Of a stretch of 64,000 bases of DNA, positions 2,739-53,273 are shown one piece after another; the stretch's first letter is position 1, and each line of letters opens with the position of its first letter. A model generated the notes under the pieces. It was given only the letters and a program-made list of their open reading frames with translations, was not told where the DNA came from and ran no database searches. The stretch is taken from positions 1 through 64,000 of the forward strand of contig NXFV01001816.1 of the NCBI GenBank assembly GCA_002803225.1. Reading direction: 5' to 3'. Both the position numbers and the translations under genes were made by a program. The stretch is from Gamarada debralockiae (lineage: Eukaryota; Ascomycota; Leotiomycetes; Helotiales; Hyphodiscaceae).

Positions 2739-4997
2739 GAGTTCTGTCTTTCAATCCGGCGTGGAGAAAAATACTAGATGCTGAAGTAAGAAGGCAAGAA
2801 AGAGGAAAAGTCATTAAAGTAATATGAAGAAGCCAGCTTCATAAATCATTGCAGCACTTGTGTGGCAGACTTGGAGGGTGGAGCTAAGATACTCAGATAT
2901 ATGTTCTTCATCTCCGCAGTATTGAATGCATTAGACCTTACCAGAACAGTGTTTGTCCCGCTAATGCTTACTCCACAAGAAGCCTCTGTATCCATGCCGT
3001 CCCGTTCAATGGGAAATGCGGGGAGTTCAAGTGACGAATCCACTTTGATAAAGAAACATGCCACATGGCCGATGTGGCTGCATTTGCCACTATCCGGCCC
3101 AAACACCTTGAAGAATTGAGGGTTTGTACCCGAAACTATGCGGGACAAGGTTACTTGCACCATTTCGCACATGTCAGTCCTTGCATAAACCGTTCGTCGC
3201 ATACAAAACATCCAGGTACCGTCTCAAAAAAAAGTGGGTGACCCTTGAAAGGTGGCCCTTATTGCCTTGTAGAGTTGTCAGGAAGTCTCTAAAGCATGAA
3301 CTTGATACCTTGAGCATTTATTGACAGGACAAAATTAGAACTCTGCTTTTGAAGACTTGCCAAAAATTATTGAACAAAGTTCAACCAAAACCGATTGAAA
3401 TCAGAAGAAAGCGATGCACGACTTTTCGTGCTTCATCGCCGAGACATTTGACTTGGCCCAATCAACCGCACTTCTCGATCGAGTGCAAGTAACCAAATTC
3501 TGGAAAGTAAATACGTTATTGGATCGCCACGATGCAGGAACAGCTTCTTGCGGATAGAGGCAGCGGAAGTTGTCGGTTCTGAGTTCCCGCTCACATCAAT
3601 GTCAACTGGCCCAGCAGGGGTTTGATCGCACAGACCAAAGAAGGCTGATTAGTAGTTCGTCGTACAAATGGCGAATTGCAGAAACCCATTCTTCGAGAAG
3701 AAGCCCTTTTTGCGGATATTGTACAAGGTGGAAACGTGACTGCACGTATCAGAACCGGTTAATTCGGCCTCTTGCTCGGCGGTACACCGGTTCGAGTAAT
3801 TCCCCCGCAAATGCCAAAGGTCAAAAGACGGACCACATCCCTAAACCGTACTGAAGACTTAGAGGTCTGTCTCGTAGTTGTCTGTACCTGGGTCATCTCA
3901 CGCCCAAACAGCCAAAAGCGATATGGCGTGCAGCGGTCAAATCAGGGAGTTCGGTAGATGTTGGCATAGTCTTATGATCGATCTATTTCAAGACAACATA
4001 GGACCCGGGTTGTCGATCATCTTCGCACTCGACTTTTTGTTGCGCAACCGACTCTCCTCAAGTTGTCGAGCGTCAAGCTCGCGATTTTGCAAGATTAGTC
4101 ACTCGCGTTTCGGCTGCAGCCCCCACGTCTCGCTTGAACCTCCGAGTGCGAATGCGAAAGGTACAAGTACAAAATCCTCCATGCCCCCAAGAAGATCACA
4201 CTGTATTGTCGGCGATGGTACTGCCAATTTACCGGCCGGTTCGATGAGACGTCTGTACTTTTGTTCTGTAGTCTGAAGGCGTTCAAGTCTCTACTTGTAC
4301 ATATCAGTAGCATATCGAAAACCCCTTGTTTCACACTCCCACGTCTGCCGTGTTGCTGGCTCAATTCGCTCACTGCAGGCCTGATACACGAACTTGTTGC
4401 TTATGGAAGTTGTCGATCGGGTGGATGTGCCGACGTGGTTCTGGTCGCTTGTCACTGGACTGTCGCCTTAAGACCTCTCTCTATACCCCTCCGGCCCGGA
4501 TTCGGAGATGCAGGACGACATGTGGAGTTTGAATGAAAGTTACAGCTTTCATTGAAGGGTCACACAAGATAATGGAGAATTGAACCTTATCACGGCGCCC
4601 ACAAGCCTCTCGCTGGATTGCTTCGCCGCTTGGCTTTTCAAGTTCGAGGCTTACTGGACAGAGACACGTTGCTGATGGTAATTGCAACTCGTTGAGGCTG
4701 TTGCACCCTGCTCATTGGGCTGCATCGCTTGCAGCATTCCGTTGGAGAGTTCTCGCGGAGTAGAACGCTGTCAGCTTACTTCCACCCTTCGGAATATGAT
4801 GCGTGAAATTCCAGACGGGCAATTGAAAATGCGAGTTCTTGTCCGTTCCCTCGTTCCCCGCGGAGAGATGATAACGAAGATTGAGTCCTGAGAGAGTGGC
4901 AAAGGCAATGGTGCCATGGTAGCATAAAAACTATCAGCAACGACGAAAGACTCAGACAGGAATACTTTTCGACTCAACTCAATCCAAATGCAACACT
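2739..4997. other. Gene-poor interval of about 2.2 kb
   Basis: Only short open frames without recognisable domains are present. A frame at about 3710-3750 reads CGYCTRWKRDC, which matches the second half of a Zn2Cys6 cluster in spacing. No first half or downstream regulator domain was found, so it is at best a relic. Confidence 0.5.
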
Positions 4998-7778
4998 TCA
5001 CCACTGCAAGTCACCCACAAACCCACAACTCTTCTCATCCTTCACCACCTTCCCACTCACCCTTTTCCCCTTCGGCGTCGTTAACACGTCAAACAAGGCC
5101 TTCCCAAATCTGCGAAATGCACTCGTCAGACCTCCAATCTCAATGAGTTCCTTCTCCATACCACTCATCTGAAATGGCCACTCCCCATTTCCCTCTTTAT
5201 CATCGCTCAAGAGCCTCACAACACTCTTACCCAAATCGACCTCAACCTCTCCCGCTTCCCCGATCTTGTCCACAGCAGCATAGAAACTTTCATCCTGAAT
5301 CACAATCCCCAACAATCCCAAATTCGGCGCATTCCTCCCATAAATAAACCCAAAGCTCTTTGCAATGACAGCTTGAATACCACATCCTAGGAGGGCAGAG
5401 ACGGCGTTCTCGCGAGAGGAACCGCAACCGAAGGCTTTTCCAGCTACGACGATGTTGTAGCCATGTACAGCTCGTGAACGGAATTCAGGATGCGTGTGCT
5501 TGAGGCAGTGCTGGCCAAATTCCTCGTTTGTTTTGCAAGTTGTGAGGATTTCGGCAGGTGCAAGCTGTGTCATTGTCAGCATGTGAAGTCAGTTGGAAGA
5601 GGGATACGAACAGCATCAGTGTCGATGAAGTCTCCTAAGATTTGGATCTTGCCACGCTTAATATCTTGAGAAGCGCTCTCGCATTTTGAAGGCTCGATGG
5701 ATGTTGCGTCTTCAGTCATGGCTGTCTCATCTGGCACGCTAGCGGGAGACCCTACGCTATGGCTGCTTGGCTCAACATAAACCGGTCCCTTCCCAGAGCC
5801 ATCTTTCGACTTCTGACCCAGCATCTCCCTTAATCGCACCCGATCAATCGCATCAAGATACCGCTTCGGATCCGTGATTTTCATCTCCAGCGAACTCGCA
5901 GCGACCGTTGCGGCCGAAGCAAGATTGCCAATTGCTCCTATATCACCACTGTCAGCCCAACCCCCACGATCTCCCACAACCAGCAATGAATTACGTACCT
6001 TTTCCCATCCTATTCTCAAAATTTCTGTTCTGACTACTCAACCACACCTCGCCCTCACCAGCTCTATCCGCACCCATGCCCACACAATAACTACACCCCG
6101 GTACACCGACTGTGAATCCCGCTTTCTCGTACACATCTACAAAGCCCAACTCCTTCAGCCGATTCAAAATCGGCAGCGAGCCCGGGACAACCCTCCGCTT
6201 GCCCTCTTTGACTGGCACAATGCCATTCTTTAGACCGATCTCAAGGACCATTGCACCAATAATCAAATCTTCCTCGGCAGTAGTGCATGCCCCGATGAAA
6301 CACCCATCCAAATGCTTCCCCTCAATGTCACCTACAGGGGCAACGTCGTCCGGACTCGGATACAGCGCCACAAACGACTCGACTTTCGAGAGGTCGATTT
6401 CATGTGTCTCAGCATAGACCGCATCATCGTCAGGTCGGAAATACGTCGCATTCTTCTTATTCCGCGAAAGCTTACGGCGATTGATGAAATCATACGTGAT
6501 TTGGTCTGGGACGAAGATACCCGTGATGCCGCCGAATTCAGTCGTCATATTCGCGATAGCGAACCTGGCATCACAACTCAGATGCTGCAATCCTGGGCCG
6601 GTGAACTCCACTATCCTATCCGATGCAATGGTATTACGTTTCAGTTGCTGTAGGATGTAGAGGATGGTGTCTTTCCCGCCGATGCTAGGGGGAGGTATAC
6701 CGACGAAGCGGATGTTGACACTTTCAGGGACTTTGAACCATGTCTCGCCTGTGATGAGCGGCATTGTTACGTCCGAGACGCCCAGACCGATGGAGAGGCA
6801 AGCCAGGGAGCCGGCGGAGCAGGTGTGCGAGTCCGAGCCAATTACTAACATTCCGGGTTGGGCACGGGAGCGGAAGAATTCAGTGTGCATTATTGTGTAC
6901 TGTCAAGCATTAGAACAAGAGAGTTGGGATGGGGACATGACCTTACGTTCATGCCTTGGTACTCAGTCATCTTGAAATTATCTCTTGCCCTCTCACTCGA
7001 CTCAACGAATTCTTTCACCTTGGTATTATCCTTGATCCGTGGATCAACCACATGATCGCCTGCCAACCAGAATCTGTCGTTTCTCCAAATTCCTGGTTTG
7101 CCAAGTGCGTCGTATTCTCTCTCCATGCCCTGCATCCTGAATCAATATTTCCCCTTCACTCAAATCAAAGGGTCACAGAATGACTTACCGCCCAAGAAAT
7201 CTCACTAGCCATAACAAAATCCACATCCACTCTCACCATATCCCCTGGCTTCAGCACACCTCTCCTCTCCACGTCATGGGCGGCAAAGATCTTCTCGCTG
7301 AGCGTCATTCCTCGCCGGCCTTTTGGGCGTGACGTGAGAGGTGGAGGGACGGATTTGGCTCTGTCTTGGGAGTTGAGTGATTCAAGGTAGGCGGAGACGA
7401 GGAAGATGACGGATTTCTCGTCTTCAGGGGTCAGAGAGGAAGCTGATTTGAGACCGAGTCCACCAAAGTCGGGAGAGAGGATGCTGAGTTCGTGGACATC
7501 GTGGAGAGTCTCGGCTTCTCGGGGAAGGTTGGATGATGAGAGGATATTAGAAAGGGTGACGAGTTGGGAGAGTAGGCTTCGGTGGGTTAGGAGGGGTGCT
7601 GTGAATGTTAGTCACTGGGTCAGTGTCAGGGAGATGAGCTGTTAGACGTACCAGATGGTTCGCTGCTTGGGATAATATTAATCTTTCTGATATCTCGGAG
7701 ATAAGTAAAAAGCTGCTCTGTAGCCTTTGAAGATATTTCTTGGAGACGAATAGGAATATCCAAAGCCATAATTACCAT
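4998..7778 (-). CDS. Aconitase/3-isopropylmalate-dehydratase-family hydro-lyase (837 aa)
   Basis: Six exons join in frame: 7652-7778, 7189-7598, 6947-7129, 5999-6899, 5612-5937 and 4998-5564. An in-frame ATG at 7769 is an alternative start. The large subunit part shows the SDSHTC motif and the three expected [4Fe-4S] cysteines: Cys445 (GACTTAEED) and Cys509/Cys512 (GCSYC). The C-terminal swivel domain has [10 protein letters not shown], the GSSRE substrate loop. Large and small domains are fused, as in fungal Leu1 or homoaconitase, with a low-complexity linker rich in Ser/Glu at the end of exon 5. The reaction is a stereospecific dehydration/rehydration of a malate or citrate-like acid; the actual substrate cannot be told. 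It is divergent from the lyase at 8260, which suggests a shared promoter and pathway. It could be a duplicate of housekeeping Leu1 or Lys4, or a methylaconitate- or dimethylmalate-type enzyme. Confidence 0.9.
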
Positions 7779-11416: not shown

Positions 11417-13023
11417 TCAAATAATGCAAGTACTTGACTTTTCCACGTCCTCGAACCATCCGGGACTACAGATATCTCCACCTCCAGGGAATCCTATGCC
11501 AACCCTTTCAAATTGCGGTTCACTATAATTACTACCTGTCTCTTCCAATACCAGAACATTGCAGAGCTGGCGGTGCGGATGTTGCATCGCCACTATATGC
11601 TTGATCAAAGTTGACCTAACCAACACTTTCTTCGTTGTCTCGGATATGGTCCTGACCGCCTGGATCTGCATATCTTTCATACCCAGCAGACCAGGGTCAA
11701 CCCGAGGATCCATCCTCTTCAACTGAGCAGTAATTGTGATGGATCCAGATGCCAACTGACCCTTGAGATCCAGACCCTCTGCTGTTGTTTTGGCCAGAAT
11801 CTGCGATGCCATAAGTTCAGACGGGGAGATTCCTTCAGGGAACGTCCTGTAGGGAATTGTGACGGGTCCATCATATGCGGCCCATGACCATGAAGGGCCA
11901 CTGGTCTGCTACTTGCTTCTTAACATCCCAACATTAAAATGACTCTTCCATAGTCCGGCTACGTACTTCTCTTTCGTTCGACTTTCCATCACACTGGCTA
12001 GGCCCGAGAGTGCGGGTAGCTTGTCGCCCGGATTGGTCAAGCTGCATCGAGTGTAGTGTTTTAGCATCTCGCACCAGTCCCATGCGACCCTGTTGGCCCA
12101 CAGAAGATCACTTGATAATGAATAATCAAGTTTGAATCTACCATTCCATACCGCCAGTTGCACTACATAAGCTTCTGGCAGCACTCCGTCTTGGGTGAAT
12201 CGTTTTTCTCGACATTCTACAAGAGCTGGTCCACATCATAACGTATATTCTCAGGTGACAGAAGCCTTTCCTGAGTGACCTAAGCTCGGTGTTGAAGGGG
12301 CTGCTAGAGAGATCTTCTAACCATTTAAGCCTCTCTCAGAAGAACTTGTCTAGTTTTTCCCTTACTCATTGTGTATCTTACTCGAACGAGGGTGTCAGGT
12401 GAGATCTATGCTCTTGTTGGTTGCTATGGTGATGGTTTATTTACATGTCTGTTGGATTCTGGCAACCCCACGATTCTCCCTCCTTAGATATCAATACATT
12501 CATGATTTTACCTCAATTGATCGTCTGATTTGACAGGGGGCGTCAGCAGGACGGGGTTGGAAGCAACCCCTGCTGCTGTCGTTGGCTGCTGTAGCAGCAA
12601 TTGTCAGATACGACCGAGAATAACATGACATTCGCCTATCACAGCAACTTCTCTTTCCCAATCTTCTGCATCGCCTTGAATGATGCATAACGAACCAATC
12701 CAGAGATACTGTACCCCCATCATTCGTGTGATAGCGATTGCATCTAGGAATGTTTTTGGAAGAGAGGACATTGGAAGTTGACTGATATGTTGAGGTAAAG
12801 TCTCTTTGGTTGTTCGAATGAAGGGTTCCTTTCCCCAACAGTGACTCAATGCCATGTATCGTTCCTTTCGTTCCCAAGCTGTAACTTTGAGACATAGTTC
12901 TTGGATTCCAATTTTCCTAACATCAATCACCTGTGTGGGTAATTTGCCGAGTGGAGGTTGACAGCAGATTGAGCAGCGAAGCTTGGCATGCGATTTTGGA
13001 TTAGTCTCGTGATATAAACAAGG
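11417..13023 (-). pseudogene. Decayed HET-domain (heterokaryon incompatibility) gene
   Basis: The minus strand shows HET family text in order. Near 12850 is the YMALSHCWG motif, then YLWIGSLCIIQGD...DWEREVAVIGE. After a frame change comes TIAATAANDSSRGCF (about 12550-12600), then LLSPENIRYDVDQLL, then YTRCSLTNPGDKLPALSGLA (about 12000) and PSWSWAAYDGP (about 11880). A CSICC pair upstream at about 12960 belongs to the usual N-terminus. Several stops and frameshifts break it. TAG replaces the expected Trp in RAW-VTQE and in the DQLLW motif, and a TAG follows MLRSK near 11908. These are TGG or CAG to TAG changes compatible with RIP. The ancestral protein would have controlled allorecognition cell death; this copy is dead. 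Confidence 0.85.
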
Positions 13024-15461: not shown

Positions 15462-17815
15462 ATGAGTTATCGAGGTGGTCCTTCCGAACGCCCAATAGCC
15501 CCTCTGCAGCCTTCACAAACAGATGTACCTACGTCATCGAACTCACAGCAAGCGAGGGAAACGCCTCACAGGCCTAAACGAGTAGCTTGCAAGGAGTGTC
15601 GACAAGCCAAAGTCAGTGACTTGCCTCACGTGATAAGGCGTGAAAACAGGATGACTGATCTGAACTCTTCTTCCATAGTTACGATGTGATGGCTCAGCCA
15701 CTGGGACTGGGAATCCATGTGCAAGATGTCATAGACTATCACTGGCTTGCCAGATAGACACAAATTACAAGCGAGTCAGCAAACGGGTGTCAGTTCTTCC
15801 CTACCAGAATTACGTGGACTTTCGACTAATATCTTGTCCTAGGAAAATCAATGAACTAGCGGAGGAAGTAGAGAGGCTGCGTTCTGCTGTGGATCGACGT
15901 GGAACAGATACCTCAAACACCTTTGCACCCGGGGGATCATCTGGGCCCCCGTCCAGCCGCCTCGATGGCACTCTTCAACAGGCTCCCAACTTTCACTCAC
16001 AACCAGCACTCTTTCCACAGCAACCAAATGCATCGTCTCAAGGTCAGCCACCTTTTACCCAACTCGTTCCAAGTACACCCGCATCGTTTTCTGCATCTTC
16101 TCCGGCAACCCAATCCCGATCTCTTGAGCACATCGACCTCGACAAAGATCGAATAAATGACTTGTTCCGACTGTAAGTGGACATTCATGCCGCTTCCATC
16201 CTTCCCAATTAATCTAATTTGTACAGGTTTTTCAAACACTATCATCCTTTCTTCGACATTCTTGATACGGCTATCTTACCAGACGAGTATTACTCTCGAT
16301 CGCCTCTGCTCTTCTGGTCAATTATTGCCATCGCTGCACGGCAGTATCAACATGATGCCACATTGTTCTCCCAATTGACTCCATGTGTCAAACGAATGAT
16401 GTGGAGCTCAATCTCGGTGCTCCCACATACTCGATTCATAGTTCAAGCGATTCTTTTGCTTTCGGTATGGTCTTTCCCTACCAATTCAATGTCAACAGAT
16501 CCCTCCTTCGTACTGGTGTCAATTGCCAAAAGTGCTGCGATGCAGCTTGGTCTTCATAGACCAGAAATCATCCAGGATTTCCTAAGGGTAAAGACTCAAC
16601 TGAGTTCAGAGGAATTCCAAGATGCTGTCAAGACCTGGGTAGGGGTTTTCATTGCGTCACAAGGGTTGGTCTCGACTCCGAATTGCGGGCTCATATCTTC
16701 TTACTCTCAATAGTGTAACGGCAGGTATTGGGCAGTCGACATTAATCCACGCTGATTGGGTAATTGAGGCAGCGTGCGAGACGGACTCTAAATATGCCAT
16801 ACCACAAAATCTACGACATCACCTTCTCATTTCGAAATTCATTACACGAATCAACTGCCTAATGGCAGAGGACAAACGATCGGAGACAGGATATCCTTTA
16901 GACCGCGATATCTGCGTTTTGATGAACGTATTAGAACAGGACTTCATCGATCTAGAAGTGCACCTTGGACAAAAGCTCTCCGGTATAATACGAGAACGAC
17001 ATGTTGCTTGCATTAAGTGGACTGACTAAAGCACAGAGATCCATCAAATACTATTGTTAACGGCTTCTTTGCAACTAAGAACCTACTACTTCTTTGTTTC
17101 AATAAATGACGACGTCCGAAGAGAAGGACTCCTTAAAGCTTACACTACATCTTTGGCGCTAATATCGAAAGCGGCCGAGGCAGACGGAAAATATGATTTC
17201 ATCAAATACGCTCCAAAAGCTTACAGCCAATTCCTCGTCATTGCGGCTGTCCTTGTAATGAAGATCATCCATTCCAATTACTCCAAATACATCGATACCG
17301 AAGGCGGCAAACGATCTTTCGACACTCTTCTTTTGATGTTCCGAAAAGCAAGTATCGAAAACGATGATCTTCAGGGGCGAATCGGCAAAATCTTGACGCA
17401 GCTTTGGAGTTTCCATCAGTCTTGCGCTGCAAAGAGTATGCAAGAACCCAAGTTGAATCTCAAGACAAGATTTGGGGCAAGTCTGCTACATGATTCGCTG
17501 TGGACATGGCGGGAAGAGTTTGGTGGACAAAGAGATGCCGTCCGAGCAGCTGTTCCGCACGCTTCTAACCAGGAGTATTCAGAAGGTTCTGAACGTCTGT
17601 CAACAGTCATCAACAGCGTCGGCGATACAGGCCCAGGGAGTGTGGATTCTCAGATGCTTCCACAAGAGAACTTCAATCCAGCCATTCCGACCCTCGAAGA
17701 AACGAATTTCAATTTCGACGTGCAAGATATGGATTGGCTCTGGGGTGTGGGCTTTCCTTCATTTCTACCGATGGACTTCAATTCATATGAGCCTCTGCGG
17801 CCTGGATTTCAATGA
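15462..17815 (+). CDS. Zn2Cys6 transcription factor, WAR1/LEU3-like
   Basis: Six exons join in frame: 15462-15611, 15679-15788, 15843-16172, 16227-16655, 16714-16982 and 17037-17815, giving 688 aa. The zinc cluster starts in exon 1 (ACKECRQAK) and continues in exon 2 (LRCDG...CARCHRLSLAC). It is followed by a basic linker and a short leucine-rich coiled coil (INELAEEVERLRSAV), then the fungal regulatory middle domain (FFKHYHPFFDILD; SIAKSAAMQLGLHRPE; KTW). The C-terminus contains an acidic/aromatic region (DVQDMDWLWGV), a plausible activation patch. Donors GTCAGT, GTAAGT, GTCACA and GTATAA were used; the GTCACA donor of intron 4 is the weakest choice. It is a nuclear regulator. The next gene downstream on the same strand is a cis-aconitate-decarboxylase-like enzyme, a likely target. 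Confidence 0.9.
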
Positions 17816-18318
17816 ACCAGATCCTCGCGCTGTAGCCACACTCTCTAGGCCGCCTCAACAGAGGTACCAACTGGAAGCTTTCGGAGTGTGTGATAGTTAG
17901 AAGGTTACCTGGGGCATCTGAGCTTTGCTCGCAATTTAAGCCCTATCGGAAAAATTCCGAGAGCGGATGCATCCGTCCGCACCAGTACGCAGTCACTGAC
18001 ATCCAATCATTCATCGGTGCGCAATCGGTGCCGCTGACTTCTTGCGCAAAATCTTCCCGGCAAAAAGGCACGAAAATATTTTCGGCGTCGTTTCTAAACT
18101 CCGCCGGCGGTGACGCAAGTGATTCAGAATTGGCTTTGAAGTAGTTTGCGAAGGTGGTATTTTGAGGCAGAAGGTCGCTACCGGTACTGGGCTCTTCGAA
18201 ATATAATACCACGGAATATCTGCTCCCAATGCCGCCATTCAAGTAGCAGGCATCTTACAAAAATCAATTGCATCTTAAATATAATTCACAATTCAATTCC
18301 AAGAGCTGTCTCTGAACC
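17816..18318. promoter_or_regulatory. Promoter region of the MmgE/PrpD gene
   Basis: About 500 bp separate the regulator's stop from the enzyme's start. No coding signal is seen. It presumably holds the enzyme's promoter. Confidence 0.45.
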
Positions 18319-19881
18319 ATGGCATCGACTTCCAGTCAACCAATGGACCCCTCAGGACCCACAGGGAAACTCTGCGTCTGGATTGACTCTCTTTCCATGT
18401 CATCCATACCCGAATCAACCAAAACTCGTGCGAAATATCTCCTCCTCGATGGAGTGGCATGTGCTCTCGTCGGTGCTCATCTTCCTTGGTCTGAGAAAGC
18501 CACCAACGTGATGCTCAACATGGAACCCGCTGGAGATTGTGCCGTCTTTGGCTGGGACAAAGTGAGTTCAGACTTCAATATCCAACCCCATTTTTTCTTG
18601 AACAGGTCCAAAAACGACAGGATGAAATTCTAATGTGCGACCCAGAAACTTTCCCCTTTGTCAGCTGCCCTCATAAACAGCACATTCATCCAAGGCTTCG
18701 AGCTTGACGACTGGCATTCAGAAGCTCCCCTCCACTCAAACTCAATCCTTATCCCCTCGCTCTTCGCCGCCATCCCCGCCCTCACCAAATCATCCACTAC
18801 CCAAACATCCAGCCCAACCACGGCCACCGTATCAGGAGCTTCCTTCCTCCTCGCCTACCTAACAGGCCTCGAGGTTGGCCCCCGCGTCGGCAACGCCCTG
18901 CACGGCGCCGACATCCTAACGCGCGGCTGGCACTCCGGCGCCGTCTTCGGGCCCTCCGCATCCGCTTCTGCTGTCTCAAAACTCTTCTCTCTAAACGCAG
19001 CGCAAATCGAAGACGCGCTCGGCATAGCCTGCACCCAAGCCTGTGGGCTCATGAGCGCGCAGTTCGAAAGCGACGTTAAGAGGATGCAGCATGGATTTGC
19101 TGCGCGGAATGGACTGTTTGCAGCGCTGCTTGCAAGAGGAGGATATGTGGGGATCAAGAAAGTTTATGAGCGGGAATATGGTGGATTTTTGGAGATGTTT
19201 TCAAAAGGCAATGGGCAGGAACCTCAATTCCTCATTGAAGAAGTTACCAAAAATCTTGGGGGCGATTGGAAAACGAATAAAGTGCGCGTGAAGCCGTATG
19301 CAGCGATGGCGGCTACGCATGGCGTTATTGATTGTGTGCGGAAACTGCAGGAGTATTATGAGGAGGAGATGAAGGATTTGGAGGGTATTGAGAAAGTCAC
19401 GTTGACGATGGGGGAAGTGGCGTTTCATCATGGCGGTTTTGATATCAGTCCTCCGATCACGAGTGTTGGCGCGCAGATGAGTGCGAAGTATGTTGCTGCT
19501 ACGCAGATGGTGGATCGAGAGGTGATGCCCAGCGAGTTTAGGCACGATATGCTTAAACGAGATGAGGTTTGGAGGTTGGTGGAGAAGATTACTTGTGTAC
19601 AGAGTAGTGGGAAAGGTGAGGAGCATAAGTGGAAGACGATTGCTGAGGTGAGGTGGAAGGATGGGACAACGGCGAAGGTGGAGGTTATGGCGGCTAGAGG
19701 TATAAAGCCAGAGTTGAGTAATAAGGAGATTGTGGAGAAGTGGGGGGCTATTACGAGGGATGTTATTGATGATGAGAGAAAGGCGAAGATTGAGAAGGCT
19801 TGTTTGGAGATTGAGAAGTTGGATGATGTGATGGAGCTGGGGGAGTTATTGGCGGCTATTACGAAGAATCCGATTGCTTAG
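18319..19881 (+). CDS. MmgE/PrpD-family enzyme, cis-aconitate decarboxylase-like
   Basis: Two exons, 18319-18561 and 18646-19881, give 492 aa; the 84 nt intron runs from GTGAGT to CCCAG. The protein is collinear with fungal cis-aconitate decarboxylase (CadA type, about 490 aa). It has RAKYLLLDGVACA near the start and the active-site segment FELDDWHSEAPLHS at residues 99-112 (Asp102, His105 and His111 in the expected places). It also has ALGIACTQACGLMSAQ, HGFAARNG and YGGFLEMF.KGNG. Known relatives decarboxylate cis-aconitate to itaconate or dehydrate 2-methylcitrate. The strong motif agreement favours the decarboxylase branch, but the substrate is inferred. A Zn2Cys6 regulator lies directly upstream, as in known itaconate clusters. 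No dedicated organic-acid transporter was found in this window. A peroxisomal or mitochondrial signal is not evident. Confidence 0.9.
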
Positions 19882-20214
19882 GGTACCATTGCAAAAGGTG
19901 ATAGAACTGGAAGGAGTCTTAGTATAGACATTGGTACTGAATTGGCCTAATTATGCATGTCTCTTCAGTCCTCCAACTACAACTCTGCACGGAAGTCGAC
20001 AGCCAACTCAACCTTGGGCCTTAGCAAGAAATTCGGCGGAAGGGCCGTGTCGCAGGCGAACCACGCCCCCGAGAAACGTAGTCATCCGGTGTTCATGGGG
20101 CCAATATTTGACCTATAGGGCAGATCTCATTCAATTGCTTAATTCAATCGTTCTACTTCTAGTCTTGTTGCCCACGTGACATTGCGCGAAATAATATAGG
20201 CTTTTTATCTATAA
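19882..20214. other. Intergenic region
   Basis: No supported gene lies between the PrpD-family stop and the left TA flank of the inverted-repeat unit. Confidence 0.5.
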
Positions 20215-20216
20215 TA

Positions 20217-20256
20217 ACGTCCATCCTTGTGTAGCGGAAAACCCTACGTGCCGGAA
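20217..20256 (+). repeat. Left terminal inverted repeat
   Basis: It starts ACGTCCATCC and ends GTGCCGGAA, containing the invariant core GCGGAAAACCCTACG. It pairs with 23422-23461 and is preceded by TA. Confidence 0.85.
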
Positions 20257-20995
20257 AAAATGATAGGTACTTTGACTTTAAGCATGGTAAAATCTGTATA
20301 CACCTTAATTTATCCTATATTTTCTTATAAGTTATATTTCGTAGTCACTCCTAGACACCCTGAACCCCTCCCACTAGAAAATCATGTTCGTATTATCGCC
20401 CTCATGCTTGATTTGTAAAGGGTCTCCTTTTATAGTATAATAGACTTCCTCTACTATAACTCTACCACCCAGCTTATACTATCCCTAATACTTATAAAGG
20501 GGTCTTATCTGAGCTCTAAGGCCTCACTACTATAGGAGAAATCATCATTAGCCTTATGGCTGCTGTGCACGCAAATTCATACACAGTCGCCACGCCGATC
20601 GGTACCTCCAACCGCACGTCCCGATAGCAGCACGTGATCGCGGATGGCCCTGTGGCTGTGCAGAATCTTGGCAAACGTGCCGGCCTCAGCCCCGCAGCCT
20701 TGCAATCCAACTCATCCTTTGGCCATGCCTCTGGTCACCAACTCATCTCTAGAGAATTCGCCACCTCACAACCCTATAACAGGAGCGGGTCGGTCGTCCT
20801 CCTTGCTAGCGTGGTCGAGGCGTTCATCTGCCCCTAACAAGATTCAAGTGGCAAATCTTCAACAACCCAAGACAGCGCTGCAGCAGGTTAGTGAGCGCTC
20901 CATCCCCCGGTGGGGTCCGTGGCAATAAAGATAACGACTAACTTGAGTGAGCTAGAATACTAGACGAATGCGAACATAGTTCGAGATATCACGTT

Positions 20996-22489
20996 ATGCG
21001 TCTCATTCGCACCACGACTCTCCTTATGAAGGAATTTAATGGGGACAAAATCCCGCCCTATGCGATACTCTCCCATACCTGGGAAGAAAGCGAGGTTTCC
21101 TTCCAAGATATGGAAGGCTGCGATGCCAACAGGAAGGCTGGATACCGTAAAATCAAGGATTGCTGCAGAACAGCAGCAGCGGATGGATTCGAATATGTTT
21201 GGGTGGACACCTGCTGCATAGACAAGACAAGTAGCTCAGAGCTCTCAGAAGCTATCAACTCTATGTACCGTTGGTACCAAGAAGCTGAAGTTTGCTATGC
21301 ATACTTGTCAGACGTGTCCAGTGGCGGGGATCCTCGCGCTCCTGAGTCCGAATTCTCGAAAAGCAAGTGGTTTACTAGAGGCTGGACGCTTCAGGAATTG
21401 ATCGCACCTTCCACTGTACTATTTTATGGCAGTGACTGGAAAGAGATTGGCACGAAATCGGGCCTCCAAGATGTCATAACAAATGTCACTAGGATTCACG
21501 TTGCGGCATTCCTAGGCGATGACGACCTCGGAACCTTTAGTGTTGCTCAAAGAATGTCATGGGCTGCGAACCGGAAAACAACGAGAACAGAAGATCTGGC
21601 TTATTGCTTATTAGGCCTGTTTGACATTAGTATGCCAATGCTATATGGCGAAGGAGAGCGTGCATTCATCAGACTACAAGAAGAGATTATAAGGAGGTCT
21701 GATGACCCTACCATTTTTGCATGGAGATCAGATATTGAGTGGGACTTCAAGAGTGGCCTCCTGGCAAGATCTCCTTATTGTTTTCGTGATTCTGGAAGTA
21801 TAATCCGACCTTATGGTTCAAAAAGCACCTCTTTCACCTTAAGCAATAAAGGCGTGCATATTCAGCTCCGGTTATTGCAATTGGACGACCAGCCCGGGGG
21901 ATTTCTAGGCGTCTTGGACTGTCACGATACAGCCCACAGCGACCATCTGCTCGGCATTTTCCTGCAGGGAGATGAGACAAACGAATATGGATATAGAGCT
22001 AGCTGCAATGTACTCGGAGCGATAACCAACTCAGAAGCAAGCGCCCTTGAAACGAAAGCAATCTATATCAAGCAGTGGCCTCCTGTGGACTTTAAGAGAT
22101 TATACAGACATTACAACCATTATTGCATTAGAGCGGCAAATACTCAAGACCATTATCCGCCCGGATTTATCCAATCGGATGGAACGATCAATCAAGAAGC
22201 GGGGCCTCATAAGAACACGATGGGTGCGGTGAAAGTCGCAGTTAATGGGGAGACCCAGGTAGTTGTTCTGATGATAGCCGATGGCGTCCTTTCTGCTAGC
22301 ATTGTAATAAACTTCCAAGGTGAGAGTCTAGAGGAGATTGTTCATTCGTGGGATGCTAAGAAAGGAGTTTGGATAAATAAGCCTGGTCGAATTGTACAGG
22401 AAATCTCTCAAGGGCGTCCTGTATGTATTGAGATGAGAAAAAGAATTGTGTTTGGGAAGCGAACGCTTACAATAGATATATCTACATAA
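20996..22489 (+). CDS. HET-domain protein (HET-E/DUF8212 type), intact
   Basis: A single uninterrupted exon encodes 497 aa. The N-terminus is the standard MRLIRTTTL start, followed by the HET domain: PPYAILSHTWEESEVSFQDM, then GFEYVWVDTCCIDKTSS.ELSEAINSMYRWYQ, and CYAYLSDV. Next comes WFTRGWTLQELIAPSTVLFY. The segment following (AYCLLGLFDISMPMLYGEGERAF.RLQEEIIR and DPTIFAW) is the usual DUF8212 region. No NACHT or WD-repeat module follows, so it is the short architecture. HET proteins trigger cell death on contact between incompatible strains. It is the only undamaged one of three HET loci in the window, and it lies between inverted repeats at 20217-20256 and 23422-23461, implying that it moved with them. 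Introns are absent. Confidence 0.92.
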   Translation: MRLIRTTTLLMKEFNGDKIPPYAILSHTWEESEVSFQDMEGCDANRKAGYRKIKDCCRTAAADGFEYVWVDTCCIDKTSSSELSEAINSMYRWYQEAEVCYAYLSDVSSGGDPRAPESEFSKSKWFTRGWTLQELIAPSTVLFYGSDWKEIGTKSGLQDVITNVTRIHVAAFLGDDDLGTFSVAQRMSWAANRKTTRTEDLAYCLLGLFDISMPMLYGEGERAFIRLQEEIIRRSDDPTIFAWRSDIEWDFKSGLLARSPYCFRDSGSIIRPYGSKSTSFTLSNKGVHIQLRLLQLDDQPGGFLGVLDCHDTAHSDHLLGIFLQGDETNEYGYRASCNVLGAITNSEASALETKAIYIKQWPPVDFKRLYRHYNHYCIRAANTQDHYPPGFIQSDGTINQEAGPHKNTMGAVKVAVNGETQVVVLMIADGVLSASIVINFQGESLEEIVHSWDAKKGVWINKPGRIVQEISQGRPVCIEMRKRIVFGKRTLTIDIST

Positions 22490-23421
22490 TTAAGGAAGGC
22501 ATTTTCCTCCAAAGGGATGGTATTATTGTTGTTTAATCCCCTTGCCTACTGTGAGGGTCTGACTCTTAGAATGCAGTCATTTTCTTTGTATTCCACAAGC
22601 CGCAGATCCGTCGATAGCAGGATTTTATCTTATCTCCGTCCTAATGGGCAGGTAGAGGTGTGTGTGTCTGTGTGTGTGCTCTATTACAGCCATGCACCCT
22701 GAAGGTATAGGCCGTTGCGATGTGCCAGCTATATACACCCTGCTGCACTATACTTTCTCCATTTCAGGAGCCAACCATGAGACCTGCTCCTTGACCTTGA
22801 AAGGCTAATAGTAACTAGATTAGTCTGCTTACATGAATTTAACTGTAGGGAAATATGGCGTAAAGTCGATGCTAGAGCCATACTTTTCTCTTAGTGTTCA
22901 GAGATGGTTGATAAATAGCGTAAATTTTGTTACATGAACGAAGCGAAGGTACATGAAGGGTACTTGAAGAAGACGTAGTCTAGAGTTGATGTGGCGGCGT
23001 CGACCAAGGTGGCATTTTGCCACCAGTAGCAGGGAAGATGGCGGGGCCCGTTACCAAGACTCTGCACAGCCACAAGCCTGACTTAAAGTGTGGCGTTCTT
23101 CTATTATATACCTTCTCCCACTTTGTCCGGATAAATCCGGCATGAAGGTTTCCTTCTGCTCTATGTCATTAAACTTTGGAGCTATATTCTTTCTTAATAG
23201 GAGCTTCATACTACGGTCCCGAAATTTAGAGACAGGCCAATAGTTATAATAGAGCAGGGGGGAACAGCCAAAATGACTTTCAACGCTATTGACCATAACG
23301 ATAGTATTTTCTTACTATAAACTGAACCCTTATAGAGAAATAGCTAAAGAATGATAGCAAACTAATTGTAACTTTATATATTTATGTGGTAGAGATTTAA
23401 GACCCCTAAACTATGAAGTCG

Positions 23422-23461
23422 TTCCGGCACGTAGGGTTTTCCGCCACGCAGGGATAGACGT
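23422..23461 (-). repeat. Right terminal inverted repeat
   Basis: The reverse complement begins ACGTCTATCC and matches the left copy at 36 of 40 positions. TA follows at 23462-23463. Confidence 0.85.
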
Positions 23462-23730
23462 TAGTAATAAGTAGATATAATTTATTTCAGGTTATTACTT
23501 TCAAGGAAGGCTTTAAGTTTCAAAGGAGGCTTTGTTAAGCTACTGCGATATATTTATATTTATCAATAATATGCTCCCGCATTCACGAGACGGATATGGG
23601 AAAACCTGACAGGGAAAAACCATATCCGGAGCAGTCCATCTTGATGATACTAAGAGAATGAAAACCAAACTATGCTCTTCTTCTTCCCCCCCTTTCCACC
23701 GCGCACACTACCATCTTCGAATCTCCATTT

Positions 23731-24131
23731 TTAGAAGCAGAATGCACCAGGAGCGCCCTTGCTAAGACAGCAATTATTGAACGCGCCAGAGTTGATGCAG
23801 TTTGTTCCCTCGGCAGAGCACTATCCAATTTATTACGACTCACATCCAAATTAGTGAGCAGGACGAAGGTAGACGTACCTGATTGTTGGGCCCTGGAAAA
23901 CGGAAACTGCCAAGAGGGCATCCAGTAGTGTCTTGGCTGCAGCAAGCGTTTGTCAAATCATCGAATTGAGGACCAGTACCACTCGGATCTTGGCACTTGC
24001 AGTTCTGTCCAGCAAGGACCCTAAATGGTATCATAAGTTTCGAGATGGATTTTGAGGGTGGAAACTTTGAAGAAGATATACCCATTGATAACTGAGGCCA
24101 AGAAGATGGTGCTGAGAGTGAAAAACCGCAT
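23731..24131 (-). CDS. Small secreted cysteine-rich protein (effector-like)
   Basis: Three exons, 24082-24131, 23879-24020 and 23731-23820, join in frame to give 93 aa. Intron 1 is GTATAT...TTTAG and intron 2 is GTACGT...GATAG. The first 21 or so residues (MRFFTLSTIFLASVINGVLA) form a classic signal peptide. The mature part of about 72 residues has ten cysteines: a CKC pair, an ACC pair, single Cys in TTGCPLG, QCSAE and TNCIN, an NNCC pair, and a final FCF. Even number, spacing and secretion signal indicate a disulfide-stabilised extracellular protein. I do not recognise the family. Its start is about 0.67 kb from the end of the HET-carrying repeat unit, a setting common for fungal effector candidates. 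Function is unknown. Confidence 0.8.
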
Positions 24132-26560
24132 TGTTGAAAGTTAAACTGAAATTTAAGGTTTGTTTGATATTATATTTTTCTCTGATGTTGGATCACTTGT
24201 ATGCTTTCTTCAGAACAGCAGCAGATCCAGTCTTTTATATCAATAGTTTTGTAGTTTCTCTTTTAGTTCCTCGAAGTGATTGAAACATAGAAGTCGATCC
24301 TAATAAGCTCGGTTCCGGGTATGTTGGAAGCAGTCGGAGTATTACTACAGCGCTAGCAGGGCCCTGAACTTTTCAACCCTCGTAATCCAACTACGGAGGA
24401 TGGGAAAGTTCATCGTGAAACAAAGACGCTTATATTCATTATGCGTAATGACGCTATAGTTCTCACTTCAGGATCGCTTCGTTTATAGCCCCAATACGCG
24501 CTTACTTTTCGGACCTAACCAGGAATACTCTGTCACACAAGTAGCCTAGCGAGCGGGTATTACGTTTAGGGCCATAGGGTAGCTGGAAATAAGGTTGAAG
24601 CAGCGGCTTTTTATTGGCTGGTTATCTGGCACTTCATTGCTCTCGAAATATAATCGAGCGGCATAGAAGATCTTAACCCCTTTAAGGGGCTTGTATAGCC
24701 TAGCTAGTCACCGGCTATGATATTGCAGACCGCGGGCATTAAGGAATAAAGTGTCCTCCTTCTGTCATGCCGCTAATTAAAAGAAGGCTAGTTCTGGCTA
24801 CAATAGCATAGAGAGGATCCCTATGGACTAAGAGTCAACCAATACAGATTTCAAGGTTTTACTAGCAGAGCCGGAATCTTAGACTACGTAGTTACCTTTC
24901 AAGCTCCAAATAAAGACATTGTTAGTGTCTATAGTCCCGTAACGTCTTTTACCTTGTTTCAAATCAACCTCAAGAGACGTACTAATATCCGAAACTTATG
25001 CTCCGCTAAATTTATGAGTGCCTATCTTAGAAGAACACCGCCGATCTCTCCTTGCCAAAGCCGGTCAATTATTCATTCGATCTACGCTGACTCGTCCTAT
25101 CGGCTACAAAGGATTCTTCTCGGCGCAATACTTCGGAGCTTTTACGTACATTACTACCAGACGTTTCCAAAAGAGGTCTGTGGTCTGCTGGTACGTCCTC
25201 GAAAAGGGTGGCTGAGCTTCATAAGATCGTTATCTCTTCCTTTAGTGTATGCAATTGTATGCCTCCCGCAATGTAAAATTATCCCCTAATACACGTTTCA
25301 AGAAGGATACGACTACGGCTTCTACTACTCGCAGCCACTTATTTATATGCACCTTGACAAGAAAATATCATTTATCAATACTTTTTAAAAGATAAAACCG
25401 GCCAAGGATCCTAACGGGCTTCTGCAAGTGGTTTGCTTGTAGAAACTAGTATAACGGCATGACTGCGTAGCCTACCCTGCGATCCATATGAAATAGGCCA
25501 TGTCTTTCATTATATTTACCATATTTGCTATTCTTTCAAGGGCGCCCGTAGCCACGTCATCATCTTCGTATTGTGCATCCCACGGAGCTGATAGACCACC
25601 GGCAAGGTTTGGTGGCTGACAGTCCATATCCATACCCAGCATCTGCTAAGCTCTCCTCAAATGAGGTCCTAGCCAATAGTTCCGATGAGTTAAATGTTTC
25701 CCGTAAAGGGAATTTGCAGCCGTTCCACTCGCGGCTCTTCCTAGACTTTGTGGTCTGAAGTGATCCTTGGCCACCTTCTCTGTCCTTTAGGATCCACGAC
25801 GTCAGTATGACGATGGCCTTATTATAAGCCCTCACGACTGGGGGTAATGAGGCCTTCGTACAACTCACATAGGGCAGATGAAAGCTGCTGTTACTGTGTT
25901 TTATCGAAATCATTGAGTTCTCAGAGTGGCTAAAGTCGTAGTTGCGAGCGATATTTGAGCAGACCTCCTTGCGCGTCATTTCAGATGAAATATATTGATT
26001 GGCCTCTTCCTTGAAATAGACGCGCTTCTCTCGCTGTCCACCACAAGGTGTCAGACGCTCAGAAACGACCCGCATCGCGGGGGTTTGGTGCTGCGTTATT
26101 TCTCCTTCTACCTCATGAGGCAGTAAGCAAATCTGACGACAATATTTGGCTGCTACGTAAGGTAGAAAGCATGCCAGAAAGTTTCCTCTCTAACTAATAT
26201 GGCCTAGTCTGCAGGGGACCATATAGGGATGTCACATCGCAATCCTTCAGCCTAGGTAGCGTTAGCAAAGGCATAATAACAATGACTGAAGCTGTTTCTA
26301 GAAGCATACCAATTAATAGACTGCGCAGAAATCTTTCTCAACCCGTTCTTTGTCTTTATCCACGCTCTCGCAGCTTTTTTGTCTTGTACTTTCCTTTTAG
26401 CAAAATTGTTACTTGATTACGCCAGGGCATAGTTCATGAAAATGCTTACCAATTTAGAGTCTCAGCGACATAGTCGTCAACAGGTATTTTGACTTCGTCC
26501 ATGCTCGCCAGGAGGCGTTCTGGAGTCTCACGCTATTCCTGGAAAGACTTATTTCTGCGG
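24132..26560. other. Gene-poor interval
   Basis: Several open frames of 60-171 codons occur (for example minus 25560-26075), but none shows a domain, signal peptide or splice-consistent extension that I recognise. The sequence may include old transposon remains. Confidence 0.45.
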
Positions 26561-42543: not shown

Positions 42544-44770
42544 ATGAACCGGAGAGGATCGACGACTACGACAGTCATTTGCTCTGCAAATTTTGCAAGA
42601 AGCTTAGAGATATCGATTTGTTGTACTCAAGCAGCTCTCAGAGACCTCTTTGCCATTACGCCAGTTACACTGCGTCGGCTCAATCGGCAAGGGGGATGTG
42701 TCCTATGTAAAGCTTTTCTGCCTGTGTGGAAGACAAACAAACCGGGCTGGTCAAAGAATGTTGAAGGTAAGGGGGATGTGGGAGATCCTGAAGCAGACAA
42801 TATCACGCTCGAAAGATATGGATTGAACTACTTTGTCCTTAGCCAACAGGTGCGGCATCAGGCTCGGGTGGCTTATTAGGATAGCGAGGTCTTCCGCATG
42901 CAGGTGGTGTTTTTCACTAACCGTGGTATGTCAGACAGTATACCCAAGCGAGTCAGAGATGAGTTTCTAATAGATTGCAGAAGGCACAGTATCTTACATT
43001 GTCGAAAGCAGGCCATGTCTCATCCAGTCTGATTCAGATGCTTCGCTTTCATTGCTACTGTAAGGGATGGATGGATGATTGTCGGAACCCACATCAAAAA
43101 TGTTGTTGGGAGCACGACCTTGTCAGTTGAGCTGTATTTTGGGGGCGAAATATAGTAGCATTTCTAGACCTAGCTGATATCTAAGGAGCTGAAATACAAG
43201 GAGGGGAAGAGCTCTCTTATATCACAAAAGAGGGGAAAATACAGGCTATTCCTGATTAGGCAATTCCAACTAACAGACCTGTTGCTTCCATCGAGAGTTA
43301 TTGACGTTGGAACTATATCCGGATTAAGGGATCCATTCTTGTTAATTTCAGATGGTAGGATATGAACGTGAGCTACATTGAGCCATAGTTAGGTGGTCAC
43401 CTACCAATCAACACGACCTTGAAACCCTTAAGAGTGTTGACAAAGGCCATTCCGATGGATGATCTGCCCCCCAACATACTGGGACGCCATAATACTTACA
43501 GGAGGCTTGTACTCCGTTATCTCTGGATCAATTCACTCTGCATCATCCAGGATGGGCGTAAAGACTGGGAATCAGAATCATGAAAGATGCACGAAGTGTA
43601 TTCTGGAGTCACGATCAACATTTTTGCTTTCACAACCCAAACAGCGAAAGACGGAATCTTTAGCAGCTCAAACAGCAATAGGCACTTAAAGCTGTCTCAC
43701 ATTACACTTCCGTGCTACAGCACCAGTCGTTCAGCTCAGGGGAGTGTTTCGATGCGCCGCCCGTCTAAAGGCCACCCCAATGTGCCTGTGTACAACGAAC
43801 CACTGCATAAAAGGGCCTGGGTCTTACAGGAAAGCATTCTGTCGCCAAGACAATAGACTTCATATTTTCGGAGATCTATTGGACATGTCATACCGCTAGT
43901 CCTTCTGAAGAGTCCCCGGAAAGGTTAAGCCAGGGTGGCCCTCTACTTGCCGGCGGGAAAGATCTCTTTCAAATGCTACTCGTAAACATTGAGCCGAATC
44001 CAGTATTGGAACCAAGTGGCCTGTACAGCAAGCCAATGTTTTGGTGGTACAGAGTTTCTATTTGTACGTCGGACGGGGTATCACGAAGAGTAATGATATT
44101 GTAATAGCCATTGCTGGGTAGCAAAGGAGATCGAAAAGAGAACTAGTTACAGTTAACAAAACGGCTTATAGCTGGACTTCTACGAAGCTCCCCTGGTGTG
44201 ATAAATATCTGAATTTGGAGCCCTACAAGCCTGGCTATCGAACAGAAAACCTGGAGATCGACTTGGTTACGAATGGAAATGATCCTTTCAGTCAGATTCA
44301 ATCATAATTGCTAAAATTCAGGGGCGGCTGGCGCTCTCTTGGTTATTGGAGGGAGGAGTCGGTTCCAGTGTACAATAGTGTCAAGGAGGATATGATGCTC
44401 TACAACAGAGGGTTACGACCTCATATTGTGGTTATGATGAGGTAGCAACCCCCGGGAGAGTTTATGCAACCCTTGATGAAAGGCTGGACAATGAGAGTTG
44501 TCATTCGAAACTTGTACGACGCAATGTGATCTGCTTCCAGATTGCAAAGTTCGAGCATCCTGCATCGTGGTCCACCAAGGTTAATGTTACAACTGTCTAT
44601 GCTCTCATGTTGGAACAGACAAACAGGAAAGTCGATGATATAGACGAATTGGCATTGCAGAGATACCACAGGAAGATGGAATGGCTGATGGATGGGATAG
44701 GAAGGTCCTCAGCATTGTCTATAGAAAAAAATGTTTTATATCGACTTCTCAAATTCAACTGTTTGAAGGT
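42544..44770 (+). pseudogene. Second decayed HET-domain gene
   Basis: Plus-strand pieces in different frames follow the HET order. Near 42560 is LLCKFCKKLRDIDLL, a cysteine-pair N-terminus, with CKAFLPVWK downstream. Near 43510 comes LRYLWINSLCIIQDGRKDWESES, a TGA stop, then VYSGVTINIFAFTTQTAKDGIF. HKRAWVLQESILSP is near 43810, TIDFIFSEIYWTCHTA near 43850 and RGITKSNDIVIAIAG near 44075, followed by TAG. The last possible piece ends near 44770. Many stops and frame changes show a dead gene. It differs from the pseudogene at 11.4-13.0 kb in the preserved text, so it is a separate family member. Confidence 0.75.
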
Positions 44771-51180: not shown

Positions 51181-53273
51181 ATGGCACAGAACTTGGGGAG
51201 CGGGCAGGATGTGGGACTATCGACACAGGGGAAGGACAGTGCGAAGGATGATGCCCTCGAGCATCATATGACATTCTACGGCTCTGAATCTCATTCTCAA
51301 TTACAAGTCACTCCACCACCGTTCCAACCACCACCGACTGCTGAACAACTCGATCGTATATATCGACCCGATAAAGTCCTTCCAGCTCAACCTCTCGATC
51401 GTCGTAGCAACACATACGTTGGAACATTTGTGCTCTTGCTTTCGTGGGAAGACGAGGACCCCCGATTACCCGTCGATTCAGAGATTGATCGCCTGCACGA
51501 TGTCTTTGAGAGACTATACCACTTTAATGTGGAGAGGTGGAAAATACCTAGCAATGACCCACACATACGGTTGAATGAGAAGATTCTGGAACTTGTGAAC
51601 CTTGGAGACGATCGAGAAGACTGCCTGAAGATAGTGTACTACGCAGGACACGGCGTTCTGAGTAGAAATCGTCGCGCTGTGTGGACAGAGTAAGCAAGCA
51701 CCATCCACCTAGAACCTCAACCCAGTAATTCTAATTCACCTGCAGTCACCGTGGACGAACCGTTGTGTGGTCTGGTATACAAAACGCTCTGGAGCAGGCC
51801 AAGGCTGATGCTCTCATACTCCTCGACTCCTGCAACTCAGGTACAGCCAATGCTGATCAAGGTTGCGGCGTTACAGAGCTAGTGGCCGCTGCTGGCTTCA
51901 ATGTTACTGCCAATGGTGTTGGGGCTTGGTCGTTCACCCACGCTCTGGTTACTGAGCTCCGTTTACTGGGCAACAGTGGACGTCCATTTACAGTTGCCAA
52001 GCTACACAACCTAATTGTCAGCAGGATGCAAAATCAAATACCGGCTGGCGAGGAATATCACAACCCTCTTGAGGTTCTCCCTACTGAGCGATTTGTCACA
52101 CCCGTGCACATTGTTCTCACAGAGGACAACGTCAATATGTCTCGCAGGATCCAGATTCGCCGAAACAGCCACAGCTCGACCCCGGTTCTAAACCGGCTTC
52201 AAGGGAACGTGGCAGCTTCACAATTGACACCAACCAAAGATATATCCGTTAGATTGTCGTCTCAACCACCAACACAAACACCCTCACTTACACTTTCACT
52301 CTCAAACCTTATAGCGATTGAAATTGAGCCTTCAGTCTCCAGACCAAGCTCTCCAACTTCTTGGCCCGTGGCGAGAGGCGAATCTCACCAGCCTGACACT
52401 TATCAATCAGGACATGTCGACCAAGACTTTGTCGTATCTGCTCGTTCACTACTTCTTGAGATGGAAGAGAGCATGCATGACTTGGTGAGCCTTTCTCTTC
52501 CCGGGAAGTCAGGAAAGAAACGCCCGGGGAAAGTTCTAAATCTACGAGCGAGTGGCACTTGTGAAGAGGTCCAGCAGATACAGCTGCAAATGCAATTGCA
52601 AATGCGCAGACACAGTAATACATAGCCCTCTCAAAATTCTTACATGTGATTGCTAATGCTATTATAGAGGAAATCTTGCGCCTCACGGAAGAACGGAGAG
52701 CACTGCTCACCGCGCTCGAAGAACGAGCTGCTGCTCGCCAGAATTTGAAATATGAGCTGGATCCTGAGGAGAACAGTTGGGGTGCTCATAGGAGCGACCC
52801 GGAGGATACCATTTTACTCGGACTTGGCAGAGAATGTCTAGATTCAATTGTCAAAAAGATCGTCAGAATACTTGAAAGACGAGTAAGCCATCACGTTTAA
52901 TTTCACTTGCTATCCAGCTGCTGGCCCAACTTCGCTGCCTTTTATCTGCTTATATTCCGTACTGACTCGCACTCAATATCAGTTGCGCCACTCAGCCTAC
53001 ACAACTTTCAGGGAATTTCAGAGCATCCGTAAAAGAGTCGACATTATAGCCTCTCTGATGGTCACCTGCTTGATTAACTCTCTTTTGATAGCGACATACA
53101 TCATTTGGGCTGTCTATACTTCGTCCTCTCTCAATAACAGAATCATTAAGTTCGGCATTTTGTCGAATCAGACGATATTGTGTGGTATAAGCATGTATAT
53201 ATTGAGATCTCTAAGGAAGGAAAGGTGGAGGGTTGCCAGAACCCGAAATATGTGTACACAACTGTTGCCATAG
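51181..53273 (+). CDS. Caspase-like (C14) protein with coiled coil and C-terminal membrane segment
   Basis: Four exons join in frame: 51181-51689, 51746-52614, 52668-52882 and 52983-53273, giving 627 aa. A proline-rich N-terminus precedes a caspase-like domain: TFVLLLSWEDEDPRLPVDSEIDRL, then YYAGHG (His157), then the LLDSCNSG box (Cys199), the expected His/Cys dyad. A Ser/Thr-rich linker (about residues 310-440) follows. Then comes a charged helix (EILRLTEERRALLTALEERAAA, about 461-485) likely to form a coiled coil, and finally a hydrophobic stretch near residues 552-575 and a second near 600. Exons 1-2 alone would end at a stop at 52625; splicing from GTAATA at 52615 avoids it. Membership of the fungal stand-alone caspase family is firm. 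The membrane-anchored tail is a model. Confidence 0.75.

Follow-up and report, generated by a model that had tools for sequence, protein, structure and literature searches.

A complete HET-lectin gene in a probable non-autonomous pogo/Fot1-type element of Gamarada debralockiae, one of a family with recurrent allorecognition cargo

Structure of the element in the window

The window, a stretch of 64,000 nucleotides from the ascomycete Gamarada debralockiae (assembly GCA_002803225.1, contig NXFV01001816.1, positions 1 to 64,000), contains a 3.2-kb unit (20217..23461, + strand, without the flanking TA) composed of a left arm, a HET gene, and a right arm. The element is real, well supported, and part of a family, and it is very probably a non-autonomous member of the pogo/Fot1 type (Tc1/mariner superfamily) with a complete HET-lectin gene in place of its former interior. 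We read the family as one that repeatedly took up allorecognition genes. The grounds for regarding the unit as an element are its inverted termini, the TA borders, two shared arms, and unrelated cargo found in either orientation. The host genome searched comprised 54.3 Mb in 1112 contigs; the element in the window is labelled C935, and other C numbers denote other contigs of the same genome.

The original prediction, made from the letters of the window, had described 40-bp inverted termini with TA directly outside each end, enclosing a lone full-length HET gene with neither intron nor transposase, and all of these features were found. On re-alignment, the left (20217..20256, +) and right (23422..23461, -) terminal inverted repeats of 40 bp were identical at 36 of 40 positions, and all four differences were transitions. 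The complementary ends extended to 45 nucleotides each (20212-20256 and 23422-23466, 89%). Dinucleotide shuffles, used as the chance control, lacked such matches: two matches were seen in the window, and none of 100 shuffles had two. The TA dinucleotides lie at 20215..20216 and 23462..23463, each being either a target duplication or the last bases of the terminus, which are inseparable without an empty site.

The left arm (20215..20771, +; core 20215-20608) is shared in its entirety with the C129 element (85%), and the right arm (23041..23463, +) with the C129 and C553 elements (89-91%). A subterminal inverted repeat of 24 nt (92%) lies 0.4 kb inward from either end (20651..20674, +; 23051..23074, -), and related inner repeats occur in C129 and C552/C553. 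Besides the HET gene, two open reading frames (ORFs) of at least 80 aa were present between the termini: one of 94 aa (20644-20928, +) without a Pfam match and one of 81 aa (23051-23296, -) inside the right arm. No transposase was found inside the element, the HET gene being the sole ORF there with a Pfam match, and the window copy is non-autonomous. No further copy of the terminus was found within the 64-kb window.

Right arms repeatedly contain open frames of 80-125 codons (C769:185200-189600, 127-501, +; C345:126400-130500, 279-578, +; and the 23051-23296 frame of the window, -), and left arms also hold recurring open frames, such as L047 999-1283.

The HET-lectin gene inside the element

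The cargo is an intact single-exon HET gene of 497 aa (20996..22489, +; HET, PF06985, 4.1e-15). It is full length and intron-less, since the protein aligned over its entire length with proteins of 496 aa (68%) and 503 aa (67%), and the start M-R-L was nearly invariant among 34 aligned sequences. In the structure model, the HET domain region (21050..21517, +; model residues 19-174, Pfam HET 22-109) is predicted to have a weakly TIR-like fold (Toll/interleukin-1 receptor), and the C-terminus (22112..22486, +; residues 373-497) a fruit-body-lectin fold. Foldseek alone on this model gave no match with E below 0.001, and the lectin-fold call came from a second structural look together with the relatives. 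The predicted combination is that of the het-B protein (BH) of Podospora anserina, which likewise has a HET domain and a C-terminal fruit-body-lectin fold (PMC10890737; here and below, published systems are described from the parts of the papers that were covered). BH works with a PII-like partner (PMC10890737). A role in incompatibility may be expected of the protein in the window. Comparison with the paralogues in C82 and C552 gave pN/pS values of 0.45 and 0.51, at saturated synonymous sites, which indicate that the gene has probably been under purifying selection.

Two more HET-like stretches occur in the window without the termini of the element (11921-12891, -; 43428-43850, +).

Termini and arms across the host genome

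The original prediction had proposed that the terminus be sought elsewhere in the genome, and it is present genome-wide. The terminal 19-mer gave 167 matches with at most two mismatches (84 forward and 83 reverse), and the control pattern gave 0; a 23-mer of the terminus gave 40 matches with at most three mismatches, with 0 for its control. No exact copy of the 19-mer was found in the viral contig collection. Two different conserved arms adjoin the terminus, namely a left core of 394 bp and a right arm of 350 bp. The left-arm core was found at no fewer than 40 places besides the window with identities of 74-89%, and the last 350 bp of the right arm at 40 or more places, whole or in part, two of them as pieces. 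The mean identity of aligned arms was 80% for the left (n = 29) and 76% for the right (n = 12). Among the elements that were compared, the terminus was common to both kinds of arm and the remainder of the arm was not; in the C935/C129/C552 group, the two kinds additionally shared short inner inverted repeats. TA was present at both outer ends of all eight elements with both ends in hand.

Tandem left arms occur at C1090:35681 and 35990, and a right end adjoins a left end at C433:114279-120217; both may be composite or nested arrangements.

Pairing of the ends

For a census of ends, we took the left- and right-arm listings (40 scored candidates each), the first part of the 167 matches to the 19-mer, and 12 of 38 and 14 of 44 rows from two pattern searches, whose remaining rows were ends already entered. 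The ends were entered by hand, and two partial rows (C390 and C397) are omitted. After merging, 136 ends were obtained, 58 of which formed 29 inward-facing pairs on single contigs with a total length of 148 kb. Both ends were typed in 23 pairs, of which 21 consisted of one left and one right arm (binomial, 3e-5), and these 21 measured 2.4-11 kb; the left terminus of C1085 is cut by the contig end. The left-specific pattern also matched two right arms (C3 and C655), and an end is weakly typed where this pattern was the sole basis. When the ends of this type (C108 and C512 at 45-58 kb) were removed, 20 of 21 typed pairs were still left plus right, with HET or NLR domains in 12 of the 20.

Five more pairs span the breaks between consecutive contigs (C95/96, C179/180, C345/346, C552/553, and C786/787), and their fitting directions suggest that the contigs are numbered in scaffold order. 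The similarity of left arms between elements agreed with that of right arms (Mantel r 0.54, p 0.003; nine elements, including three cross-contig pairs), which fits elements that would have diverged as whole units.

Cargo of the family

A HET or NLR nucleotide-binding domain was found in 12 of the 21 typed left-plus-right pairs ("NACHT-type" below refers to Pfam NPHP3_N). HET genes are carried by C935, C105, C770, C302, and C1103, and by C769 at 185 kb (C769:185200-189600) together with a transposase remnant; C657 has HET and NACHT-type domains, and C786 at 175 kb has HET, NB-ARC, and TPR. C129 carries a phosphorylase-NACHT-ANK gene, C89 a NACHT-type gene with stops, C1062 a NACHT-type gene with stops plus WD40, and C59 an NB-ARC domain with no long frame around it. 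Three typed elements were read in small part or not at all: the first 1.5 kb inward from the left end in C82, 2 of the 6.8 kb in C335, and nothing in C108. In the cross-contig pairs, four of five had a HET or NLR nucleotide-binding domain (C95/96 and C786/787, HET and NACHT-type; C552/553, HET-ANK; C179/180, NACHT-type with stops plus WD40), and the fifth, C345/346, had a HET-S (HeLo) homologue, a broken transposase, and a WD40 end.

Eight of the approximately 300 HET and NPHP3_N matches listed lay inside the 29 pairs, compared with 0.82 expected by area (P 2.5e-6); this is a first test only, which leaves the local clustering of HET/NLR genes uncorrected. MFS_1, taken as the control family, had 9 matches listed and 0 inside elements, too few to serve as a control.

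The direction of the cargo was counted by reading the outputs for elements with named cargo. It ran from the left to the right arm in nine (C935, C552, C89, C657, C105, C662, C181, C1065, and C1085) and in the opposite direction in eleven (C129, C96, C1062, C346 by its WD40 end, C179/180, C770, C1103, C786 at 175 kb, C302, C769 at 185 kb, and C59). C935 and C129 were alike in their arms (90% left, 95% right) and yet carried unrelated cargo, which fits a replacement of the interior.

Proteins beside the left arms of C769 at 24 kb (C769a; L030 2-946, -) and C508 (L034 3-734, -) are related to each other (30% over 132 residues); they belong to no Pfam family, are by eye rich in hydrophobic spans, and may be recurrent cargo.

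Transposase of the family

The genome contained 79 matches to DDE_1, a domain which we take to mark the pogo/Fot1 family. Six of them belonged to five typed right ends (C133, C345, C769, C849, and C724, which had two pieces); they lay 0.75-1.5 kb inward from the end (0.75-1.2 kb in the count by ends) and were transcribed away from it. Five typed right ends with DDE_1 within 1.5 kb compare with 0.045 expected, and a seventh match, in C87, lay inside an untyped terminus. The transposase with these termini that the original prediction had proposed to look for was located in part: five loci have DDE_1 a little inward of the same right arm, and all of these copies are broken or partial.

In the C769 element, a left and a right arm enclose both DDE_1 (1.2e-12) and HET (2.8e-14). 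The C345 transposase, read with X at the stops, matched DDE_1 at 9.6e-21, and its best relative was 76% identical. Its named relatives are fungal, and several of them have a CENP-B-type helix-turn-helix (HTH, PF03221), for example P0122 (75% identical); no CENP-B-type HTH was found by Pfam in the broken C345 transposase itself. Adjoining the transposase is the HET-S homologue (C345:126400-130500, 3273-4100, -), a HeLo protein (1.7e-43; PDB 2wvo "small s protein", 1.2e-42), followed by a nested Tc1-like transposon, recognised by eye and without a Pfam match, and then by the contig end. Two elements, C769 and C345/C346, have transposase remnants and cargo of the recognition or cell-death type together.

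The WD40 end found beyond the C345/C346 contig break, beside a left arm, is reminiscent of a HET-S/NWD2 pair.

Repeat-induced point mutation in arms and cargo

C-to-T changes that favour CpA are characteristic of repeat-induced point mutation (RIP) (PMC1805685). In the left arms, such changes were found in 168 of 628 CpA, 102 of 508 CpG, 88 of 1023 CpT, and 57 of 965 CpC cells of the alignment, and the right arms had the same bias towards CpA (54/200, compared with 24/266 for CpC). The TpA/ApT ratio was 1.31 and 1.29 in the arms of the window element and 0.69 in its HET ORF. Judged by these base changes and ratios, the arms in the window bear RIP and the cargo does not. RIP also fits the transition-only differences between the 40-bp termini. 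Damage of the RIP type was present in some other cargo, as indicated by the ratio of 1.07 in the C769 HET gene and the stops in C89, C1062, and C179.

The ratio was higher in the right flank (23464-26000, 0.99) than in the left flank (17001-20214, 0.56), perhaps owing to the remains of an older repeat.

Discussion

The original prediction had read the unit as a non-autonomous Tc1/mariner-type element with a HET gene as cargo. The genome-wide termini and the DDE_1 matches of the pogo/Fot1 type inside the right arms support this reading, and movement of the window copy itself may be supposed. Two outcomes named there as refuting it, termini absent elsewhere and a separate small element for each terminus, are not what was seen. 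Several observations weigh against it. No intact transposase was found inside the family ends, four of the five loci having stops and the C769 copy being a fragment. Only one of the 79 DDE_1 matches, that of C769, lay inside the 29 pairs (0.22 expected); the number is low because the census recorded no partner for the other transposase-bearing right ends. More generally, 78 of the 136 ends lack a partner. Two typed pairs deviate: C512 at 45-58 kb has a left-like end on both sides, and C433 has a right end on both; left-like patterns were also present at both ends of C786/787, and the five cross-contig pairs rest on contig numbering in scaffold order. The HET gene in the window is single copy, its best other match in the genome (72%, C82:5008-5541) lying 170 kb away from the element of that contig. 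A search of the host's own genome for the predicted empty TA site, made with three of the four flank pairs built (all but C95/C96), gave none: it returned the flanks themselves, a repeat that starts about 130 bp past the C553 junction, and a weak match in the C552 flank, with none across a junction. Finally, part of the cargo is neither HET nor NLR, namely a kinase in C662, DUF6579 in C181, a transporter-like gene in C1065 (C1065:30424-33868) that is split into several open pieces and has a weak EamA match, the N-terminus of a chitin synthase in C1085, and three proteins without identification (C769a, C419, and C335). The C1065 gene presumably resembles a GDP-mannose transporter.

This mixed cargo, together with the size of the HET and NLR families in the genome (770 and 358 first-look candidates), is what would be expected if a pogo/Fot1 family took any neighbouring gene, with HET and NLR genes dominating by number and by their repeat-rich location. 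The proportion of typed elements with HET or NLR cargo and the excess over area, which is uncorrected for clustering, speak against such unselective capture, and we consider it a serious possibility but short of an even chance. The missing empty site, the single-copy cargo, and the diverged, RIP-marked arms would also suit an old transposon whose outer ends enclosed recognition genes that were inserted or converted later, the unit itself never having moved together with the gene inside. However, the same arms flank unrelated genes at many loci and in both orientations (nine versus eleven), and the similarity of elements in the left arm parallels that in the right, which makes bystander enclosure improbable. 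As for the possibility that each terminus belongs to its own miniature inverted-repeat transposable element with the HET gene between them by chance, a small inverted pair of 883 bp in C597, the tandem left arms at C1090, and the unpaired ends could be cited in its favour. Nevertheless, in the elements compared, what the two arms have in common is the terminus, plus the inner repeats in the C935/C129/C552 group, and not the remainder of the arm; the typed pairs are nearly all left plus right, and C597 is the only one of the 29 pairs shorter than 2.4 kb. Two chance elements of this kind were rejected on the pairing and sizes, and we give them hardly any weight.

Under the preferred reading of a non-autonomous pogo/Fot1-type element with HET-lectin cargo, autonomous relatives would once have borne both transposase and cargo, a state to which the C769 and C345/C346 elements still point. 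Loss of the transposase would have left arms and cargo that could be mobilised in trans, and RIP would have struck the repeated arms and transposases, mostly sparing single-copy cargo, so that cargo genes could stay alive while the elements decay. The HET protein may act like that of Podospora het-B: its lectin-fold end would sense a partner that varies, and its HET end would trigger the death of fused cells. The surplus of recognition genes probably reflects retention by selection, the capture itself being fairly unselective because the transporter-like gene and the chitin synthase fragment are also among the cargo. Recognition genes may prevail through selection for new specificities or through the selfish gain of cargo that kills non-carriers. 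A more far-reaching proposal is a lineage specialised in circulating an allorecognition and cell-death repertoire, in which autonomous elements would have united a pogo-type transposase with HET, NLR, or HET-S genes. These genes would be selfish cargo that kills spores or fusion partners without the matching element, and transposase-less descendants would have supplied much of the host's HET/NLR diversity, with RIP eroding mainly the repeated arms. We put this forward tentatively and think it rather unlikely in full.

The family could explain the shuffling of self/non-self recognition genes around the genome. Small transposons with exchangeable recognition genes would offer a concrete and testable route for the origin and spread of the large, fast-changing HET/NLR repertoires of fungi, and since any strain can be screened for the shared termini, simple tests of presence/absence and of empty sites are available. 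Such a route would tie transposon biology to fungal immunity and, via the HET-S homologue in one element, to prion-like death signalling.

Comparison with known systems

The family shares TA borders and short inverted termini with pogo/Fot1 elements (PMC7325037). It also has the DDE_1 transposase of that family, with close relatives that possess the CENP-B-type HTH. The window copy differs in lacking a transposase, in carrying a host-type gene, and in its long, distinct arms of about 400-570 bp. The nearest published kind is the fungal transduplicating elements with terminal inverted repeats (TIRs). Those of Pyrenophora tritici-repentis likewise have a non-transposon gene between TIRs and occur in autonomous and shortened forms, and one of them belongs to Tc1/Mariner (PMC3538342). 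A complete non-transposon gene between inverted termini is present in the window unit as well. In Pyrenophora, one cargo gene occurs in many near-identical copies per family (PMC3538342), whereas one set of ends is combined here with many different genes, HET or NLR in more than half of the typed pairs; the HET gene of the window has not been multiplied along with its element, the best match in the genome being 72%. Starships also mobilise fungal host genes, sometimes NLR or HET, but they are giant (up to about 700 kb), use a tyrosine recombinase, and carry many genes (PMC12134995, PMC9594970), in contrast to the 2.4-11 kb and DDE_1 of this family; a Starship was rejected for the window unit, which measures 3.2 kb and has one recognised gene (HET).

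In Pyrenochaeta lycopersici, whose genome is rich in Tc1-Mariner, 42 HET genes were reported close to repeats; the parts covered describe proximity alone, with no shared ends or element structure (PMC6034849). The HET-S homologue and WD40 end across the C345/C346 contig break can be likened to the HET-S/NWD2 gene pair of Podospora (PMC3321046); the pairing of C345 with C346 is presumed, a nested transposon and a contig end lying between the two. In the open-access PMC papers covered by the searches, no report was found of one small-TIR transposon family with many different HET/NLR cargoes.

Surroundings of the element

To the left of the element, ORFs of the aconitase family and MmgE/PrpD lie at 5991-6890 and 18658-19881, which may belong to a metabolic gene cluster that the element borders. 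An inverted repeat of 120 bp with 72% identity (12418-12535 and 53161-53279) is also present in the window and is unrelated to the element.

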